From positions 1-5,946 of the forward strand of contig CADCQZ010000388.1 of NCBI GenBank assembly GCA_902803675.1: DNA of 5,946 bases, written 5' to 3'. Below, piece by piece: positions 1 through 5,946 of this stretch. Origin of the DNA: an uncultured Eubacteriales bacterium (GTDB taxonomy: Bacteria > Bacillota_A > Clostridia > Christensenellales > Aristaeellaceae). Numbering within the stretch: the first letter of the stretch is position 1; each line of letters begins with the position of its first letter. Below the pieces are notes generated by a model, which was not told where the DNA came from, did not search any database, and saw only the letters and a program-made list of their open reading frames with translations. The position numbers and the translations under genes were made by a program.

Positions 1-572
1 AGGGAGTAGCTGTAGGAGTTGTCAGCGCGGTAGAGCACGGCCACGTTCTTGTAGCCCTGCTCCAGGCACCACTTGGCCTGGATAGCGCCCTGCAGGTCGC
101 AGGAGGGCTGGCTCAGGAACATGTAGGTCCAGGGATCGGTCAGAGCGCCGATCTCGCCCCTGCGGGTGCAGCGGCTGTCCATGCCCATCATGAAGATCGG
201 GGTGCCGATCTCTTCGGCCACGGGCGCCAGCGCGATTTCGATGTTCGCCTGATGGGGGCCGACGACGGCCACGCAGCCCATGGAGGCCAGCTCCTTATAG
301 GCCATGATGGAGGTATCCACGTCGGACTTGGAATCCTTCTTCACCAGTTCGACCAGGTATTTTTCACCGTCGATGGTGATGCCCCCCTCACGGTTGGCCA
401 GTTCCACAGCCCAGTCGACGCCGCCCTCGATCATGTTGCCCATGACGGAGGAGCTGCCGGACAGCGCCTGGATGGTGCCGATCTTGATGGTCTTGGCTTC
501 ATCGGCCGCCGCGATGGAGATCATCGTCAGCGTCATGCAGGCCGCCAGGAGGATACAGAGAAGTTTTTTCAT
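1..572 (-). CDS. ABC transporter substrate-binding protein, branched-chain amino acid (LivK) type, 3' end outside window
   Basis: This is the N-terminal 190 residues of a periplasmic-binding-protein fold receptor (Peripla_BP_6/LivK group), which captures a small solute outside the membrane and delivers it to an ABC importer. Residues 1-23 form a signal peptide: MKK, a hydrophobic core, then an AAA-D cleavage site at 23/24. The mature protein opens with IKIGTIQALSG (29-39), the usual first strand of the family. VAVVGPHQAN (101-110) matches the loop where the ligand side chain is held, and NVAVLY (176-181) is the next strand of the fold. The ATG is preceded by AAAGGAGA with 9 nt between AGGAG and the start. 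It lies 43 nt downstream of the cupin gene, so the two are probably cotranscribed. The gene leaves the window at base 1, and permease and ATPase genes may follow. The family also carries amides, urea, aromatic acids and other solutes, so the ligand cannot be named. No lipobox cysteine sits at the expected cleavage position. Confidence 0.9.
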   Translation of the reverse strand, partial: MKKLLCILLAACMTLTMISIAAADEAKTIKIGTIQALSGSSSVMGNMIEGGVDWAVELANREGGITIDGEKYLVELVKKDSKSDVDTSIMAYKELASMGCVAVVGPHQANIEIALAPVAEEIGTPIFMMGMDSRCTRRGEIGALTDPWTYMFLSQPSCDLQGAIQAKWCLEQGYKNVAVLYRADNSYSYS

Positions 573-580
573 GGTGTGAG

Positions 581-622
581 TCTCCTTTCATGATATATTA
601 ACCGCTTGCCGCGGTTCATGAA
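581..622 (-). promoter_or_regulatory. Ribosome binding site and overlapping stem-loop between cupin gene and binding-protein gene
   Basis: AAAGGAGA (581-588 on the minus strand) is the Shine-Dalgarno sequence of the binding-protein gene. Just upstream, AACCGC/GCGGTT (600-605 with 611-616) forms a 6-bp stem with a 5-nt loop. TTCATG/CATGAA (587-592 with 617-622) adds six more pairs beyond a one-sided 7-nt bulge. The structure spans the TGA of the cupin gene (616-618) and touches the edge of the Shine-Dalgarno. There is no U-tract, so it is not an intrinsic terminator. It may affect translational coupling or mRNA processing, which is inference. Confidence 0.45.
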
Positions 623-975
623 CGGTCCGTATCGGCGAGATACTCGTCCGCCGGGTCGAAACAGGGGACGGCCACGTTGAGGATCCTCATTTTTCCCACC
701 GGGCGGTGCACACAGCCCGGATAGATCATCACGGTGTCCATGGGCTTGACCGGCACCGTCTCGCCGTCCAGCTCAAGAGCCCCTTCGCCTTCCAGGATGG
801 TATAGCACTCCAGGGTGATCTTATGGTAGTGGGGCTCCGTATCGTTTTTGACGTCCAGCAGATGCACTGACGCCGGTTTTCCTTCCGCGTCCATAAATGC
901 CCGGCGGCTCAGGCCGCAGGGACAGGCGGAAGGTTCGATCGAGCCCAGAGATGCCTTCAGATAGTGTGAAGCCAT
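616..975 (-). CDS. Small single-domain cupin, predicted metal-binding
   Basis: This 119-residue protein is one cupin barrel. Cupin motif 1 is EPHYHKITLECYTILEGEG (47-65), giving ligands H49, H51 and E56. Motif 2 is PGCVH (86-90), giving H90. All four residues of a classic 3-His/1-Glu metal centre are present. An N-terminal extension carries CPCGLSRRAF (18-27), a Cys-Pro-Cys-Gly segment that I recall from a widespread group of uncharacterised stand-alone cupins. There is no signal peptide, so it should be cytoplasmic. The ATG has GGAGA 7 nt upstream and follows a strong promoter (1020-1048), so it is the first gene of its transcription unit, ahead of the ABC binding protein. Small cupins of this type can be isomerases, mutarotases, dioxygenases or ligand sensors. 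In this setting a sugar or keto-acid isomerase is plausible, but the reaction cannot be assigned from sequence. Confidence 0.88.
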   Translation of the reverse strand: MASHYLKASLGSIEPSACPCGLSRRAFMDAEGKPASVHLLDVKNDTEPHYHKITLECYTILEGEGALELDGETVPVKPMDTVMIYPGCVHRPVGKMRILNVAVPCFDPADEYLADTDRS

Positions 976-1107: not shown

Positions 1108-2172
1108 TCACCCGATGCGCCTGAGGGCCTGCGCGGCTCTTTGGACGCTGTCTCCTTCGCGGTTGAGCAGGTCTCTCTTTTCAAGGTCTTCGGCGATGGC
1201 GTCATAGACTGCGCCGTCCTCCGGGATCGAAATATCCCTCAGATGCATCGGCAGCCCGAGAGAGGCCAGGATCCGGTCCAGATCCTTCAGATCCCTGCCG
1301 TCGTATTCGAGCTGAAGCCGCAGGCCCACGCCCACGATCTCGCCGTGGAGGTATCCCGCCGCTTCCCGGGTGAACAGGGTCCTGGCCGCTTCGTACAGCC
1401 CATGGGCCAGGGCCGACTGCCCCCGGCCCCGGGCGCATCCGCTGACCATGCCTGTGGCGGCGACGGTGAGGTAGACCATCTCGTCGATCAGGGGGGAGGG
1501 GATGCCGTTTGCAAGCTCGGCGGGCATGCCCGGCGCGATGGCGGAAAGCCGTCTGTAGAGATATTCCGCGTTATAACGGGCAAAAACCATGTCGGCGCCC
1601 GCCGGGGCATCGCCCATGTTGTGATCCAGCTCGATCATTTTCGCCATACTGTCGGCGATGCCGGCAAAGGCGTACCGGGCGGGCTGGCGCGCCATGATCC
1701 GGGTGTCGGCGATCAGGCAGGCGATCTCGTTTTCGAAAAACCAGGACCCCAGCGCCCGTCCCTCGGGCGTGTAGAGCACGGAAAGCGGGGTGTAGGCGGC
1801 ACAGGTGGCGCAGATGGTGGGAACGTTGATGACCGGGCAGCCGGCGAATTCCCCCGTCAGTTTCGCCAGGTCCATGATCCTTCCGCCGCCGATCCCCACG
1901 ATCACGTCCGCCCCTTCCTGCCGCAGGTCCCGGGCGTACCGCCGTGCCGCCTCCTCACTGCAGGGCTGCGTATGGATCCGGTGGCAACAGTCGATCCCCT
2001 CAAGAGGGGCGTCATAAATGTCCAGCACCGCCTGCCACGCCTTCCGGCCGCTCAGGATCAGCGCTTTTGAGCCGATCCTGCCGATCTCTTTCTTCAGGTC
2101 CATGAAAGCGTCCGGCCTCTGGATGTAGCGGCCGCAGCCGAATTTCCATGCCGGATCCGGTCTCAGATACAT
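1108..2172 (-). CDS. Iron-containing / glycerol-dehydrogenase-like alcohol dehydrogenase
   Basis: This 354-residue protein belongs to the GldA side of the iron-containing alcohol dehydrogenase superfamily, which interconverts alcohols and carbonyls with NAD(P). The nucleotide-binding motif GGGRIMD is at 95-101, preceded by VIVGI. The three metal ligands known for glycerol dehydrogenase are matched by D174 (GIADS), H257 (ALAHG) and H276 (YLHGE). The length is normal for the family. I chose the ATG at 2172 because GGAGG lies 8 nt upstream and the protein then opens like other members, with RYIQ at 15-18. An ATG at 2199 has a poorer signal (GGGAG, 11 nt). It starts 52 nt after the fusion gene, so it is probably the third gene of that operon. 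The usual family segment around the substrate-pocket Asp (STDAPT) here reads ATCAAY (122-127), with Cys124 replacing Asp, so the substrate is probably not glycerol. I recall a similar Cys-Ala-Ala segment in HcxA/YbdH-type hydroxycarboxylate dehydrogenases, but this is unverified. Confidence 0.9.
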   Translation of the reverse strand: MYLRPDPAWKFGCGRYIQRPDAFMDLKKEIGRIGSKALILSGRKAWQAVLDIYDAPLEGIDCCHRIHTQPCSEEAARRYARDLRQEGADVIVGIGGGRIMDLAKLTGEFAGCPVINVPTICATCAAYTPLSVLYTPEGRALGSWFFENEIACLIADTRIMARQPARYAFAGIADSMAKMIELDHNMGDAPAGADMVFARYNAEYLYRRLSAIAPGMPAELANGIPSPLIDEMVYLTVAATGMVSGCARGRGQSALAHGLYEAARTLFTREAAGYLHGEIVGVGLRLQLEYDGRDLKDLDRILASLGLPMHLRDISIPEDGAVYDAIAEDLEKRDLLNREGDSVQRAAQALRRIG

Positions 2173-2224: not shown

Positions 2225-3904
2225 TCAGGCAAAATACGGGTCCGTCTTCGCGTAATGGTATCCCCGGGTGGCGGGGGAATGGGCGACGAGCACCCAGAGG
2301 TAGGTGTTTTTTGTGCCGGGGACGGCCACTGTGGGATGATACCCGTCGGCGGCCAATACCATGTGTCCGGAGGATACGACACTGATCCGGGGATCCGAAA
2401 AGGTCCCGTCCGTCCCATAGGAGATGTGGAATCCCGCCATTGGCTCGGGCATGTCGAAGTAGCAGTAGACTTCTTCCAGTTCCTTCTCGTGCTGGTGCGG
2501 CGGCCAGGAGGTCCACATGCCGTCCGCTCCCCATGTCAGCCCGCAGATCAGCCGTGAGGCGGGGATCTTTTCGTCCAGGGTGAAAAACACTTCCCTGCGT
2601 CCGCTGCCCTCTCCGTGGATCTGATGGATCTCCCCGATGGGCAGCGTTGGATCGAAGCGCCGGAAAAAGGGCTTTCCGATGCCCTCACACCTGCCCGCGC
2701 CGATATAGAACACGGCGCCGTCCGGGCCCGCTGTCAGGCTGATCTGACATTGGCCCGGGATATAAAAACTGTCGAACCGTTCCATGTCTTCCCGGATGCC
2801 GCAGCCCTCGGCCAGGCAGCTTCCCCGGATCAGGACGCAGTTCATCTCCAGTTCGCCGGAACAGAGGAGGAATCCTTCCCCGGGCCGCAGGTTCAGCCGC
2901 AGGATATGGGCCGCCTGATTGGGCGTCTTCCCCGGCGCGATCACCTCATGCAGCCCGGGTTCCTCGGGGGATACACAGTGCCAGTGGGGGAGGGAAGGCT
3001 GTTTTTTGATGAGGGAGCGCACGTCCCGCATGCAGGCCGCCGCCAGTTCGCGTCCGGCGGGCATGTAGGCGTCCTCTTCCGACACGCTCTCCACCGCCAG
3101 ACATCCGTCGTAGCCCATCTCCTCCAGAGCGTCGATGATGGCGGGCCAGTCCACGCCGCCCATGCCGATGCGCCGGTGAGCGTAATAGTCGTTCCTCGGG
3201 CGGACGGGCGGCACCACCCGGGTGAAGCGGCCGATGTGTTCCGCGTAGAAGTCATACCGGAAACAGCCCCTGTGCGCGGGGGAGGACAGTTTGATGATGT
3301 CCTTGATGTGCACGTCGAATATACGGCCCGCCAGTTTTCTGATGCAGCCGGGGATGTCCCCGGTGGGTACCTGGTACAGGTTCACCGGGTCCACGATCAG
3401 GCCCACGTTGTCCCGGCCGATCATATCCAGCAGTTTCAGGGAGGACTCCGCCGTGTCCAGGATCGTGCCGTGATGCATCTCCATGGCGATGCCTCTGCCC
3501 TTCTCCCGGGCCAGGTCGGCGCACCTGGCCATCCACTCGGCGGCCCGCTCGTAAACGCTTTGGGACGCGGCGGCGGATTCCACCCACGCCGGCCACATCC
3601 TGATGAGGGGCGCGTCGAATTCGACCGCGATGTCCAGCCATTTTTTGAAGGTCTCAAGGGTATTTTCGCACTCTTCGTCATCCAGGAGGCCAAAGTCTCC
3701 CACGAAACAGCTCAGGCAGGTCACTTTCAGGTCCCGGCGTTTCAGATAAGCCTTCACCGCGTCTTTCTTTTCCTGTGAAGAGGCGGGACCGATGTGAGTG
3801 GACCTCAGCTCGATGCCGTCATACCCGAGATCCGCGGCGGCGGCAAGATGCTCCCATACAGAGAGCGAGTCGAACATCTGCCCGGAGAGGGTGATCTTAA
3901 ACAT
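2225..3904 (-). CDS. Fusion protein: AP-endonuclease-2-type TIM barrel (IolE/IolI-like) joined to KduI/IolB-type double cupin
   Basis: A single 559-residue frame carries two enzyme modules. Residues 1 to about 298 are a sugar isomerase/epimerase-type TIM barrel. Its predicted metal ligands are E142 (AMEMHH), D172 (VDPVN), H199 (DVHIKD) and E272 (VES), matching the Glu/Asp/His/Glu set of the IolI structure. From about residue 307 to the end is a 5-deoxyglucuronate isomerase (IolB/KduI) module. Its first cupin lacks a metal motif, as is usual in the family. The second contains WPPHQHEKELEEVY (467-480), giving H470, H472 and E477, plus H523 in DGYHP. The module has close to full IolB length, so both halves look catalytic. 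The likely job is two consecutive isomerisation, dehydration or elimination steps on a keto-sugar or inositol-like intermediate in the cytoplasm. I chose ATG 3904 because GAGG lies 9 nt upstream; a TTG at 3928 is also in frame. The start overlaps the oxidoreductase stop by 8 nt (ATGTTTAA), implying translational coupling. Confidence 0.9.
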   Translation of the reverse strand: MFKITLSGQMFDSLSVWEHLAAAADLGYDGIELRSTHIGPASSQEKKDAVKAYLKRRDLKVTCLSCFVGDFGLLDDEECENTLETFKKWLDIAVEFDAPLIRMWPAWVESAAASQSVYERAAEWMARCADLAREKGRGIAMEMHHGTILDTAESSLKLLDMIGRDNVGLIVDPVNLYQVPTGDIPGCIRKLAGRIFDVHIKDIIKLSSPAHRGCFRYDFYAEHIGRFTRVVPPVRPRNDYYAHRRIGMGGVDWPAIIDALEEMGYDGCLAVESVSEEDAYMPAGRELAAACMRDVRSLIKKQPSLPHWHCVSPEEPGLHEVIAPGKTPNQAAHILRLNLRPGEGFLLCSGELEMNCVLIRGSCLAEGCGIREDMERFDSFYIPGQCQISLTAGPDGAVFYIGAGRCEGIGKPFFRRFDPTLPIGEIHQIHGEGSGRREVFFTLDEKIPASRLICGLTWGADGMWTSWPPHQHEKELEEVYCYFDMPEPMAGFHISYGTDGTFSDPRISVVSSGHMVLAADGYHPTVAVPGTKNTYLWVLVAHSPATRGYHYAKTDPYFA

Positions 3905-4919
3905 AATTCCCGTCCTCTCCCCTGACAAGGATCCTGTGCGCGGCCGCGGATCTCAGGCAGGCTTCCTGGATCCGGACGTTTTGCATGCCCACGGCACCGT
4001 CCGTCAGCGGCGGCCTGCCCTCCTTCACGGCGGCGGCGAACTCGTCATACTGGCGGGTGAAATTGCTGATCTCATCGCGGTCGTCCACCGCTACGGTCCC
4101 GTTGTGGGTGAGCCGAGTCTCATCGTTCAGGCTGAGGGTCCCGTTTTCGGCCAGGATCAGGCGCTGATAATGGATGTCCTTGGAGGACAGGATCTTCCCC
4201 TCGCCGTTCCAGGAGCCGCCGTCCAGGCGGGTGTTCCATGACATGCGGACGCTGGCGTAGCGGTCGTCGGAGAAGCCGAGCACCGCCATCACCTCATCCT
4301 CGCCCTCCCAGACGGGGTTGAGATGCTGGGTCTCGCAGTAGACGGTCCGCGGCATCTCGCCGAACATCCACAGGATATAATCGAAGATATGGTTGCCCCA
4401 CAGGGGGATCATCAGCCCGCCGGTCTTTTGTGCGCTCTTCCACCAGGGGGTCGGGGGTGCGGCCAGGTATCCGTAGAGTTCCGCGGATACGGAGTACACC
4501 CGGCCGGCCAGTTCTTTGGACTTCATCACGGCGGGGTAGTAGCGGCGGCTCTGGCCGATCATGAGCGTGACGCCGGCGGCGTCCGCTTCCCGGATCATTT
4601 CCGCGCAGTCCGATACGCTGTTGGCCATCGGTTTTTCCAGGAGGACGTGCTTTTTGAGGCGCACGCAGCGGATCGCCATGTCCTTGTGCAGATCGTTGGG
4701 CAGGCAGATGTCGAACGCGTCCGGATCACAGCCGGCGGCCGCTTCCTCCGGGGTCGCGTAAACATGCGTGATCCCGTACCGGGCCGCGTAATCGGCCGCG
4801 CGGTCCGGGGAAACGTCCACCAGGGCGGCGACCTCCACGAGGCCGGACTGCTTCGCGGCGTTCAGATGGCTCAGGGCGATCCGCCCGCAGCCGATCAGGC
4901 AAATCTTCAGTCTGCTCAT
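3897..4919 (-). CDS. Gfo/Idh/MocA-family NAD(P)-dependent oxidoreductase
   Basis: This 340-residue cytoplasmic dehydrogenase belongs to the family of inositol 2-dehydrogenase (IolG), glucose-fructose oxidoreductase and many sugar 3-dehydrogenases. The Rossmann motif GCGRIA is at 10-15. The family EKP motif (LLEKPMA) places the catalytic lysine at 96. The C-terminal domain keeps the conserved histidine H177 and following D180 in GNHIFDYILW. The position four before the histidine, an Asp in the IolG Lys-Asp-His triad, is Leu173 here. I chose ATG 4919 because AGGAGG (4928-4933) is 8 nt away. An in-frame ATG at 4925 is only 2 nt from that site. This is the first gene of the enzyme operon and overlaps the fusion gene by 8 nt. 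It probably oxidises a ring hydroxyl of a polyol, sugar or glycoside to a ketone for the next enzyme, or runs the reverse reduction. Its exact substrate is unknown. Confidence 0.92.
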   Translation of the reverse strand: MSRLKICLIGCGRIALSHLNAAKQSGLVEVAALVDVSPDRAADYAARYGITHVYATPEEAAAGCDPDAFDICLPNDLHKDMAIRCVRLKKHVLLEKPMANSVSDCAEMIREADAAGVTLMIGQSRRYYPAVMKSKELAGRVYSVSAELYGYLAAPPTPWWKSAQKTGGLMIPLWGNHIFDYILWMFGEMPRTVYCETQHLNPVWEGEDEVMAVLGFSDDRYASVRMSWNTRLDGGSWNGEGKILSSKDIHYQRLILAENGTLSLNDETRLTHNGTVAVDDRDEISNFTRQYDEFAAAVKEGRPPLTDGAVGMQNVRIQEACLRSAAAHRILVRGEDGNYV

Positions 4920-4927
4920 ATTCATCT

Positions 4928-4933
4928 CCTCCT
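4928..4933 (-). promoter_or_regulatory. Ribosome binding site deciding the oxidoreductase start
   Basis: AGGAGG is an essentially ideal Shine-Dalgarno, 8 nt from the ATG at 4919 and only 2 nt from the alternative in-frame ATG at 4925. The protein therefore most likely begins MSRLKICLIG. Confidence 0.75.
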
Positions 4934-4941
4934 TTTGGAAA

Positions 4942-4986
4942 AGTATAGCATGAAAGATCTGATCGTAAAATGGCCATATCGTACGA
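4942..4986 (-). promoter_or_regulatory. Promoter of the enzyme operon, probably activator-dependent
   Basis: TGC followed by TATACT (-10 at 4942-4947) is an extended -10 element. A 17-nt spacer upstream the sequence is TTTTAC (4965-4970), a poor -35. Start of transcription would be near 4935, leaving a leader of about 16 nt that contains the AGGAGG site. A direct repeat on the plus strand, ATCGTA at 4962-4967 and 4978-4983 (16-bp period), overlaps and flanks the -35. The second copy lies partly inside the palindrome TCGTACGA (4979-4986). A weak -35 with repeats over it is the usual layout for promoters switched on by AraC-type activators, and such a gene lies next door. Confidence 0.55.
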
Positions 4987-5048
4987 ACAACTTATACAAA
5001 CAGTCCCACTCCGCCGCGGGCAGCCCCCCCCGGGGAACGTTCGGCCGG

Positions 5049-5858
5049 TCAGCGTAAGTCCGCTCCCGATCTCATCCGGACCGGCGGAAATCCGTAGTAT
5101 GCCTTGAAACATTTGCTGAAATACTGGGGCGAGGAATAACCCAGCCGGCCCGATACCTCACTGAGGGCCATGCCGCCGCGGATGAGGGCGGCTGCCCGTT
5201 CCATTTTGACTGACTGCTGATACTTCAGGATGGTCTGCCCCATGGTGGAGGAGAAGACCAGCCCCAGATAATGGGGCGTCACATACAGGCTGGCCGCGAT
5301 CTCTCCCACGGTGACGAAGCGGTGCGGGTTGGAACGGATGTATTTGACGGTCTTGCGGCACAGGATGCTTTTCTGGCTGTCCGCCCCGTCATCCCGGCCG
5401 CTGTCCGGGCCTCTGAGGTACGCCGCCACGGGCACGAGCGCGCGGATCCGACGGTCTGAGTAGGGCCTGAAGTCCGTGGACCGCGCCATTTCGCGCATGA
5501 TCTCAGCCAGGTCTCCGTTTTCGGGCATGCTATCCGGCGGCAGACGGTCATCCGGTACGCTGTCCCGGGAAAGCCCGCGCTCCGTTTCACAGCGGAAGCC
5601 CACATATGTGATCACCGTGCCGAGAGGGCCTGCCGAGAGACGGTGTTCTTCCATCGGAGGCACGATCAGGGCCTGGCCCGGCATAAGATGCCGCGTTTCA
5701 TCCCCGATGCTGATGTCGCAGTCCCCGCTCACCGCATAGAGGATCTCCCGGAAAGCGTGGCGGTGTTTCTCGCCCAGCCAGCCCGGAGGACATGTGAGCG
5801 CTCCTGAAAGCTCGAGCCGGATATAGAGATCGAACTCTGTCTGATAACGGGTCAGCAT
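5049..5858 (-). CDS. AraC-family transcriptional regulator with N-terminal cupin sensor domain
   Basis: This 269-residue DNA-binding protein is the likely switch for the locus. The N-terminal domain (about 20-90) is an AraC-type cupin, with KHRHAFREIL (31-40) and a second strand pair around GQALIVPPMEEH (61-72). It is expected to bind a small sugar-like effector. A polar, probably flexible linker rich in Asp and Pro spans about 92-115, followed by a helical region. The C-terminal domain (about 167-266) has two helix-turn-helix units. The first is around VGEIAASLYVTPHYLGLVF (184-202). The second is around LSEVSGRLGYSSPQYFSKCF (232-251), which carries the family signature with GYSSPQYFSKCFK. 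I chose ATG 5858 because AGGAG is 8 nt upstream. In-frame ATGs at 5876 and 5900 have weaker sites. It is upstream of, and in the same direction as, the enzyme operon, separated by a 128-nt promoter-bearing gap, so it probably activates that operon and may regulate itself. Confidence 0.92.
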   Translation of the reverse strand: MLTRYQTEFDLYIRLELSGALTCPPGWLGEKHRHAFREILYAVSGDCDISIGDETRHLMPGQALIVPPMEEHRLSAGPLGTVITYVGFRCETERGLSRDSVPDDRLPPDSMPENGDLAEIMREMARSTDFRPYSDRRIRALVPVAAYLRGPDSGRDDGADSQKSILCRKTVKYIRSNPHRFVTVGEIAASLYVTPHYLGLVFSSTMGQTILKYQQSVKMERAAALIRGGMALSEVSGRLGYSSPQYFSKCFKAYYGFPPVRMRSGADLR

Positions 5859-5887
5859 GGTGTATGCTCCTTTCATTTCCTGATGGG

Positions 5888-5916
5888 AGCATAGCACCAT
5901 TTATATAAATATACAA
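5888..5916 (-). promoter_or_regulatory. Candidate araC-type gene promoter with a palindrome in its spacer
   Basis: On the minus strand TTGTAT (-35, 5911-5916), a 17-nt spacer and TATGCT (-10, 5888-5893) preceded by TGC form a plausible extended -10 promoter, with transcription starting near 5881. The spacer contains the perfect 12-bp palindrome ATTTATATAAAT (5899-5910), directly beside the -35. Protein binding there would block RNA polymerase, so autoregulation is possible. The promoter is moderate and unproven. The region is AT-rich compared with the genes around it. Confidence 0.5.
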
Positions 5917-5946
5917 GCGCAAATAATGCTTTGTTTCTGGCCGGTC

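Follow-up and report, generated by a model that had tools for sequence, protein, structure and literature searches.

The 5,946-nucleotide contig CADCQZ010000388.1 (assembly GCA_902803675.1, from an uncultured Eubacteriales bacterium), taken over its whole length and called the window below, encodes a protein in which two metal-dependent sugar-processing domains, found apart elsewhere, are joined in one chain: a TIM (triosephosphate isomerase) barrel followed by a double cupin of the KduI/IolB kind. This two-domain architecture is rare; both component families are already known. It is quite possible, as a tentative reading in which we infer all of the reactions, the substrate and the order of steps, that the protein is a two-site enzyme of a sugar-acid (hexuronate-like) or glycoside catabolic operon. 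The initial annotation of the window knew of no characterised enzyme with this architecture, and none was found in a literature search that left most subscription journals outside its reach.

The single uninterrupted frame described in the initial annotation, which did not state a strand, is borne out on the minus strand (Table 1); a plus-strand reading of 2225-3904 contains two stops. The domain assignments also hold, PF01261 matching residues 20-280 (E 1.1e-39, 137.1 bits against a Pfam cutoff of 31.1) and PF04962 matching residues 331-545 (E 2.4e-21, 76.7 bits, cutoff 23.9), so that both lie above the gathering score and the C-terminal half belongs to PF04962. All eight metal-site residues that had been named are present, and the proposed likeness to KduI is seen in a profile alignment, in which the cupin HxH-x4-E spacing is that of KduI 1ywk. 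A further histidine, H144, stands two residues past the first barrel ligand, E142. The barrel has one unusual segment: profile alignments to its PDB relatives stop at about residues 200-216 and restart at about 247. In the predicted structure of the full chain (predicted TM-score, pTM, 0.67) the relative placement of the two domains is unsure.

A protein search returned 99 matches, 46 of them with both domains (these 46 at 97 to 39% identity and 82-100% query coverage). When the query was aligned with 27 of these 46, the cupin ligands H470, H472, E477 and H523 proved invariant in 28/28 fusions, and the barrel ligands nearly so: E142 and D172 are each kept in 27, H199 in 26 and E272 in 25, with Asp at this last position in two more, one of them P0043. 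The complete four-ligand barrel site is thus found in 25/28. Both sites appear to be under constraint, since the cupin ligands are kept in 28/28 and each barrel ligand in 25-27/28. Two of the aligned proteins depart most from this pattern: three barrel ligands are gone in P0046 and two in P0047, which has Asp at a third; the cupin site is intact in both. The same two proteins lack about 25-32 alignment columns of the barrel segment past residue 206.

P0046 and P0047, with their damaged barrel site, show that one half can outlast the other. A rival reading is that the fusion is a scaffold, in which only one half contributes catalysis to the pathway while the main task of the other is to keep an oligomer together. 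This has been proposed for QsuB: in the excerpt available of PMC7442255, QsuB and QuiC1 combine a dehydratase with an HPPD-like domain, for which, in QsuB, no activity is established and a role in oligomerisation is proposed. A pure scaffold would not need the 28/28 cupin ligands or the 25 full barrel sites, and we consider this explanation unlikely.

A frameshift, read-through, chance frame or assembly artefact was considered and rejected. An artefact, including the stop or frameshift between the modules that the initial annotation had named as a possible refutation, is very unlikely because 46 database homologues carry both domains and because the gene order AraC-MocA-fusion is kept in both of the relatives that could be located. 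These are L001, in the Clostridiales metagenome-assembled genome RUG13503 (genome G001), and L050, whose fusions are 84% and 57% identical to the window protein. The architecture is nevertheless rare in the genomes sampled. The survey of genomes and neighbourhoods suggested by the initial annotation was run on drawn, incomplete samples, three of which contain G001 itself, and neighbourhoods were read at the window, L001 and L050. Fusions were present in 2/200 genomes of G001's family (with one more genome matching in the cupin only), in 1/297 of its order at E<=1e-40, and in 1/391 of its class at E<=1e-30 (a further genome of that sample matched through barrels alone). Among 400 genomes drawn from G672's family there was no fusion, and five matched in the cupin part only. 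Nor were fusions apparent on mobile elements: of 97 viral contig stretches that fitted a pattern none was confirmed, phages gave no near match to 2225-5946, and 133 plasmid records matched in part at <60% identity, none reaching 80% query coverage.

The window reads as one minus-strand row: an AraC-family regulator, a Gfo/Idh/MocA dehydrogenase (MocA below), the fusion, an iron-containing alcohol dehydrogenase, a small cupin and the beginning of an ATP-binding cassette (ABC) binding protein. The fusion starts, with its ATG, inside the 3' end of the preceding MocA gene, and the two share eight bases. The first four genes stand in the same order in L001, where a divergent KduD-like short-chain dehydrogenase/reductase (SDR; 248 bits) adjoins the AraC gene and the homologue of the small cupin lies about 6 kb beyond the iron alcohol dehydrogenase. 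In L001 the stretch from that dehydrogenase to the small cupin and the binding protein contains a reverse-strand metallo-beta-lactamase-like gene, GntR, a glycerate 2-kinase-like gene, enolase and a D-2-hydroxyacid dehydrogenase. The metallo-beta-lactamase-like gene (L001:10766-11782, opposite strand) has a lactonase as its top NCBIfam match, far below cutoff. Downstream of the L001 operon, L054:7863-14998 encodes a fumarate-reductase-like flavoprotein, an IlvD-type dehydratase and a zinc alcohol dehydrogenase, which possibly belong to the same catabolic island. L050 has no iron alcohol dehydrogenase within its short contig.

Table 1. Features of the window, with positions in nucleotides of the whole stretch.
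Feature	Position	Strand	Details
Barrel-cupin fusion coding sequence	2225..3904	minus	559 aa, ATG to TGA; one open frame
AP_endonuc_2 TIM barrel, N-terminal	3005..3904	minus	Residues 1-300; PF01261
KduI/IolB double cupin, C-terminal	2228..2998	minus	Residues 303-559; PF04962
Barrel metal-site residues	E142 3479-3481; D172 3389-3391; H199 3308-3310; E272 3089-3091	minus	
Cupin metal-site residues	H470 2495-2497; H472 2489-2491; E477 2474-2476; H523 2336-2338	minus	
AraC-family regulator	5049..5900	minus	First gene in row; PF12833, PF02311; homologues in L001 and L050
Gfo/Idh/MocA dehydrogenase	3897..4925	minus	PF01408, E 7.2e-26
Iron-containing alcohol dehydrogenase, GldA-like	1108..2172	minus	PF00465, E 3.2e-22; L001 homologue 624 bits; frame opens at 2418, start placed at 2172 by comparison with L001
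Small single-cupin protein	616..975	minus	PF07883; possibly same row; homologue in L001
ABC substrate-binding protein, start	3..572	minus	Peripla_BP_6; cut by window end; homologue in L001

Outside the fusion, the two halves have different partner genes. Barrel relatives with PF01261 only are found between P0050 and P0069 in the list of matches, at 49-55% identity (of these, P0052 and P0059 probably represent pieces of fusions), and again among P0072-P0091, where proteins of Paenibacillus and Cohnella are about 38% identical. Operons with a stand-alone barrel were found in 2/177 genomes of G1271's family (L058 and L059); they are called Paenibacillaceae-type here on the strength of the named proteins P0072, P0074 and P0077. 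With P0072 as query, and with no positive control, 0/299 genomes of G676's class matched at E<=1e-50. L058 and L059 hold an identical set of genes: the barrel, a ROK-like regulator, two permeases, a sugar-binding protein, a MocA, a D-2-hydroxyacid dehydrogenase and a zinc alcohol dehydrogenase. Another barrel relative, P0058, is fused at its C-terminus to a D-2-hydroxyacid dehydrogenase, which shares 36-40% identity with the enzyme of these operons. One of the two genomes also has a GH88-family gene. Just upstream of the L058 barrel operon (L058:1288-7029) lie an alpha-L-fucosidase-family gene and a cluster of glucarate dehydratase (882.8 bits, cutoff 828.7), KdgD (421.2 bits, cutoff 373.95) and aldehyde dehydrogenase. 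In the stretch read of the second genome there are no counterparts of the GH88 gene, the glucarate dehydratase/KdgD/aldehyde dehydrogenase cluster or the alpha-L-fucosidase-family gene.

A MocA gene is present in all five barrel or fusion neighbourhoods read (window, L001, L050, L058 and L059), and the identity of the barrel to its window counterpart tracks that of MocA: 85/80% for L001, 56/56% for L050, 36/38% for L058 and 41/36% for L059. The window MocA matches those of L058 and L059 at 223 and 196 bits, the other nine MocA-type proteins compared giving at most 79; cupin-type matches in the L058 and L059 genomes lie far from the barrel. Because, among the non-fusion proteins compared, the MocA of the barrel operons is nearest to that of the window, and cupin-type matches there are remote from the barrel, MocA and the barrel appear, from two barrel-only and three fusion loci, to be an old pair to which the cupin was added.

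The cupin half has a different set of companions. Stand-alone proteins of about 266 aa, sharing 50-59% identity with it, occur in Lachnospiraceae, Oscillospiraceae, Clostridium, Tissierellia, Brachyspira, Megasphaera, Sporosarcina, an Actinomycetaceae strain and elsewhere. Twenty-nine such loci were read, 28 with a recognisable cupin open reading frame (ORF); L028 has none, and both it and L029 are partial matches. A KduD-like SDR at 230 bits or more is found in 25/29 of these loci against 0/10 control loci, a comparison in which the controls were few and non-random and the threshold was chosen after the first neighbourhoods had been compared; loci of more distant KduI/IolB kin (L030-L032) have KduD-like SDRs at 175-182 bits. 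Also frequent are a D-2-hydroxyacid dehydrogenase (22/29 at a loose threshold, 20/29 at a strict one), the DctP binding protein of TRAP (tripartite ATP-independent periplasmic) transporters (18/29) and an Eda-like aldolase (16/29), followed by IlvD (9/29), ManD (7/29 loose, 6/29 strict), KdgK (5/29) and a GldA-like iron alcohol dehydrogenase (4/29). In sample loci, NCBIfam models scored 574.6 bits for a nickel-dependent putative hexonate epimerase (cutoff 500), 411.6 for ManD (cutoff 550) and 243.7 for KduD (cutoff 338.85). The stand-alone cupins are thus members of hexuronate/hexonate-type operons. Eight of the loci (L002, L003, L004, L006, L007, L008, L014 and L027) have type II dehydroquinase-like and TctA-like transporter genes beside the cupin, with an Eda-like gene in seven and the nickel-dependent putative hexonate epimerase in three; their gene content would point to a sugar-acid pathway.

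At 150 bits the 29 cupin loci contain neither MocA nor a barrel, and no barrel was found at E<=1e-25 in 28 of the genomes with a stand-alone cupin; the barrel query was positive in the controls G001, G1117, G1664 and G1709 and negative in cupin-only G1162. The fusion operon unites the MocA-barrel pair with the cupin. Trees were used to ask whether the fusion may have arisen more than once. In the cupin tree, 27/28 fused cupins cluster (support 89/89), with P0018 unplaced among stand-alone cupins. Constraining all fused cupins to one clade gave p-AU 0.049 in the approximately unbiased (AU) test; for the fused barrels the value was 0.139, from a test that left out S_P0059 and S_P0052 (probable fusion fragments) and F_P0046 and F_P0047 (long, degenerate).

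The initial annotation took the protein for a fusion of an IolE/IolI-like barrel with an IolB/KduI-like cupin that would hand an intermediate straight from the first to the second, a change in the order of steps of the myo-inositol route. The best NCBIfam matches do run this way (IolG for the upstream MocA gene, at 108 bits, IolE for the barrel and IolB for the cupin), but all are far below their cutoffs of 355, 290 and 205: the barrel scores 46.1 bits against IolE TIGR04379, and the cupin 57.3 against IolB TIGR04378. Scores against KduI NF002091 (cupin, 26.6 bits, cutoff 250) and IolO NF041099 (barrel, 37.6-40.9 bits, cutoff 300) likewise fall short of the cutoffs. In addition, G001 has a separate iol operon elsewhere in its genome, with IolD (867.4 bits, cutoff 715), IolE (398.3, cutoff 290), IolG (459.4, cutoff 355) and IolC (378.3, cutoff 300), and a canonical KduI at another place (432.5, cutoff 250); the IolB-like gene of G001 did not match at the strict E-value applied. 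A phmmer search with the IolD of L052 (E<=1e-5, ORFs of at least 100 aa), which found its own source as a positive control, detected no IolD in the window, L001, L054, L050, L058, L059 or the 29 cupin loci. Finally, the window MocA is much nearer to that of the Paenibacillaceae-type barrel operons than to the IolG of G001 (223 vs 65 bits). The re-ordered inositol route is therefore very improbable; hexuronate-type or keto-glycoside catabolism is favoured. For the stand-alone cupins, of which two were tested, the IolB model is the best match yet its cutoff is not reached, so that the automatic name 5-deoxy-glucuronate isomerase seems doubtful; the databases give this name to two of the fusions, P0018 and P0023.

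Assuming a two-site enzyme of sugar-acid or glycoside catabolism, the MocA dehydrogenase might first convert a ring hydroxyl to a ketone. The barrel, with a divalent metal at E142/D172/H199/E272 and H144 as acid/base, would then act on the keto sugar by enediolate chemistry, for which beta-elimination or dehydration is most likely; the cupin, using a second metal at H470/H472/E477/H523, would convert the sugar acid back and forth between its aldose and ketose forms; and the iron alcohol dehydrogenase or a KduD-like SDR could alter the redox state of the product. The fusion would hold the second and third steps at a fixed ratio in one chain. The sequence MocA-barrel-cupin is placed by analogy, and the order could be reversed.

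Published systems offer parallels. In levoglucosan catabolism, according to the portion of PMC7676230 available, oxidation comes first, elimination and hydration are then carried out by proteins that bear a sugar phosphate isomerase annotation, and LgdC is annotated as Gfo/Idh/MocA. AtOGE has a ligand His132 and a catalytic His134, the same i/i+2 spacing as E142/H144 of the barrel; as excerpted, PMC10628242 demonstrates elimination from 3-keto-phlorizin by AtOGE and terms hydration by AtHYD preliminary. AtHYD is also in the list of folds for the window protein, a listing that does not discriminate a 3-keto-glycoside beta-eliminase. C-glycosides are cleaved by a Mn barrel subunit joined to a beta-sandwich subunit, and the active site lies where the two meet (PMC8563793, in part). 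In E. coli, KduI is linked to the conversion of galacturonate and glucuronate, with the isomerase step put forward as the authors' own hypothesis in the section available (PMC3578941).

Another possibility is that the fusion couples an isomerase to an epimerase, the cupin converting an aldohexuronate to a ketohexuronate which the barrel then epimerises in the manner of IolO/LguG (5-keto-L-gluconate to D-tagaturonate). IolO is the second-best NCBIfam match of the barrel (at the upper of the two scores given above), LguG performs C-4 epimerisation of a ketohexuronate in the part of PMC12632266 available, and the cupin relatives sit in hexuronate/hexonate-type operons. However, the barrel and its stand-alone relatives have E-x-H-H-G-T where the L-ribulose 3-epimerase motif is E-x-x-N-R-x-E, and this scheme has no need of the MocA that accompanies every barrel or fusion read; it seems distinctly unlikely. 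The barrel motif is nearer to the E-T-H-P-N-T of AsbF, and because of its E-x-H, dehydratase chemistry of the AsbF type is favoured over epimerisation. A more specific form of the elimination scheme, which we regard as speculative and not especially likely, is a self-contained lyase-isomerase: the barrel would eliminate or dehydrate a keto uronide or uronate made by MocA, and the cupin would isomerise the unstable enediolone before it escapes. If true, this would mean an oxidative, non-hydrolytic route for sugar acids or glycosides in these Clostridia, with a catabolic step so far undescribed. The fusion also serves as a Rosetta stone, linking the MocA-barrel pair to the KduI/IolB-like cupin family: assaying one fusion protein would help to assign MocA, barrel and cupin alike.

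Among known systems, KduI and IolB (KduI 1ywk and 7yrs; IolB-like 2qjv) share with the fusion the double-cupin fold and the HxH-x4-E...H site, and match most of its C-terminal half; unlike them, its cupin scores under the equivalog cutoffs for IolB and KduI, is joined to a barrel, and has its nearest kin stand-alone in hexuronate/hexonate-type operons. The dehydroshikimate dehydratases QuiC1 and QsuB (cf. 5hmq) likewise combine a barrel with a second metalloenzyme-like domain, but theirs is HPPD-like rather than a cupin, and the pathway differs. The window protein is set apart from the xylose-isomerase-like barrels (AsbF, IolI, IolE, Art22 and D-tagatose 3-epimerase kin) by scores below every equivalog cutoff scanned, by the fused C-terminal cupin and by the unusual segment at about 200-247. 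LgdA belongs to the same family as LgdC, and LgdB1 and LgdB2 are PF01261 barrels. The levoglucosan and 3-keto-glycoside systems (LgdA/B1/B2/C and AtOGE/AtHYD), as far as the available excerpts describe them, resemble the fusion operon in that a sugar dehydrogenase accompanies proteins bearing a sugar phosphate isomerase annotation, and the C-glycoside deglycosidases, within the same limits, in that a Mn TIM barrel is paired with a second, beta-sandwich subunit.
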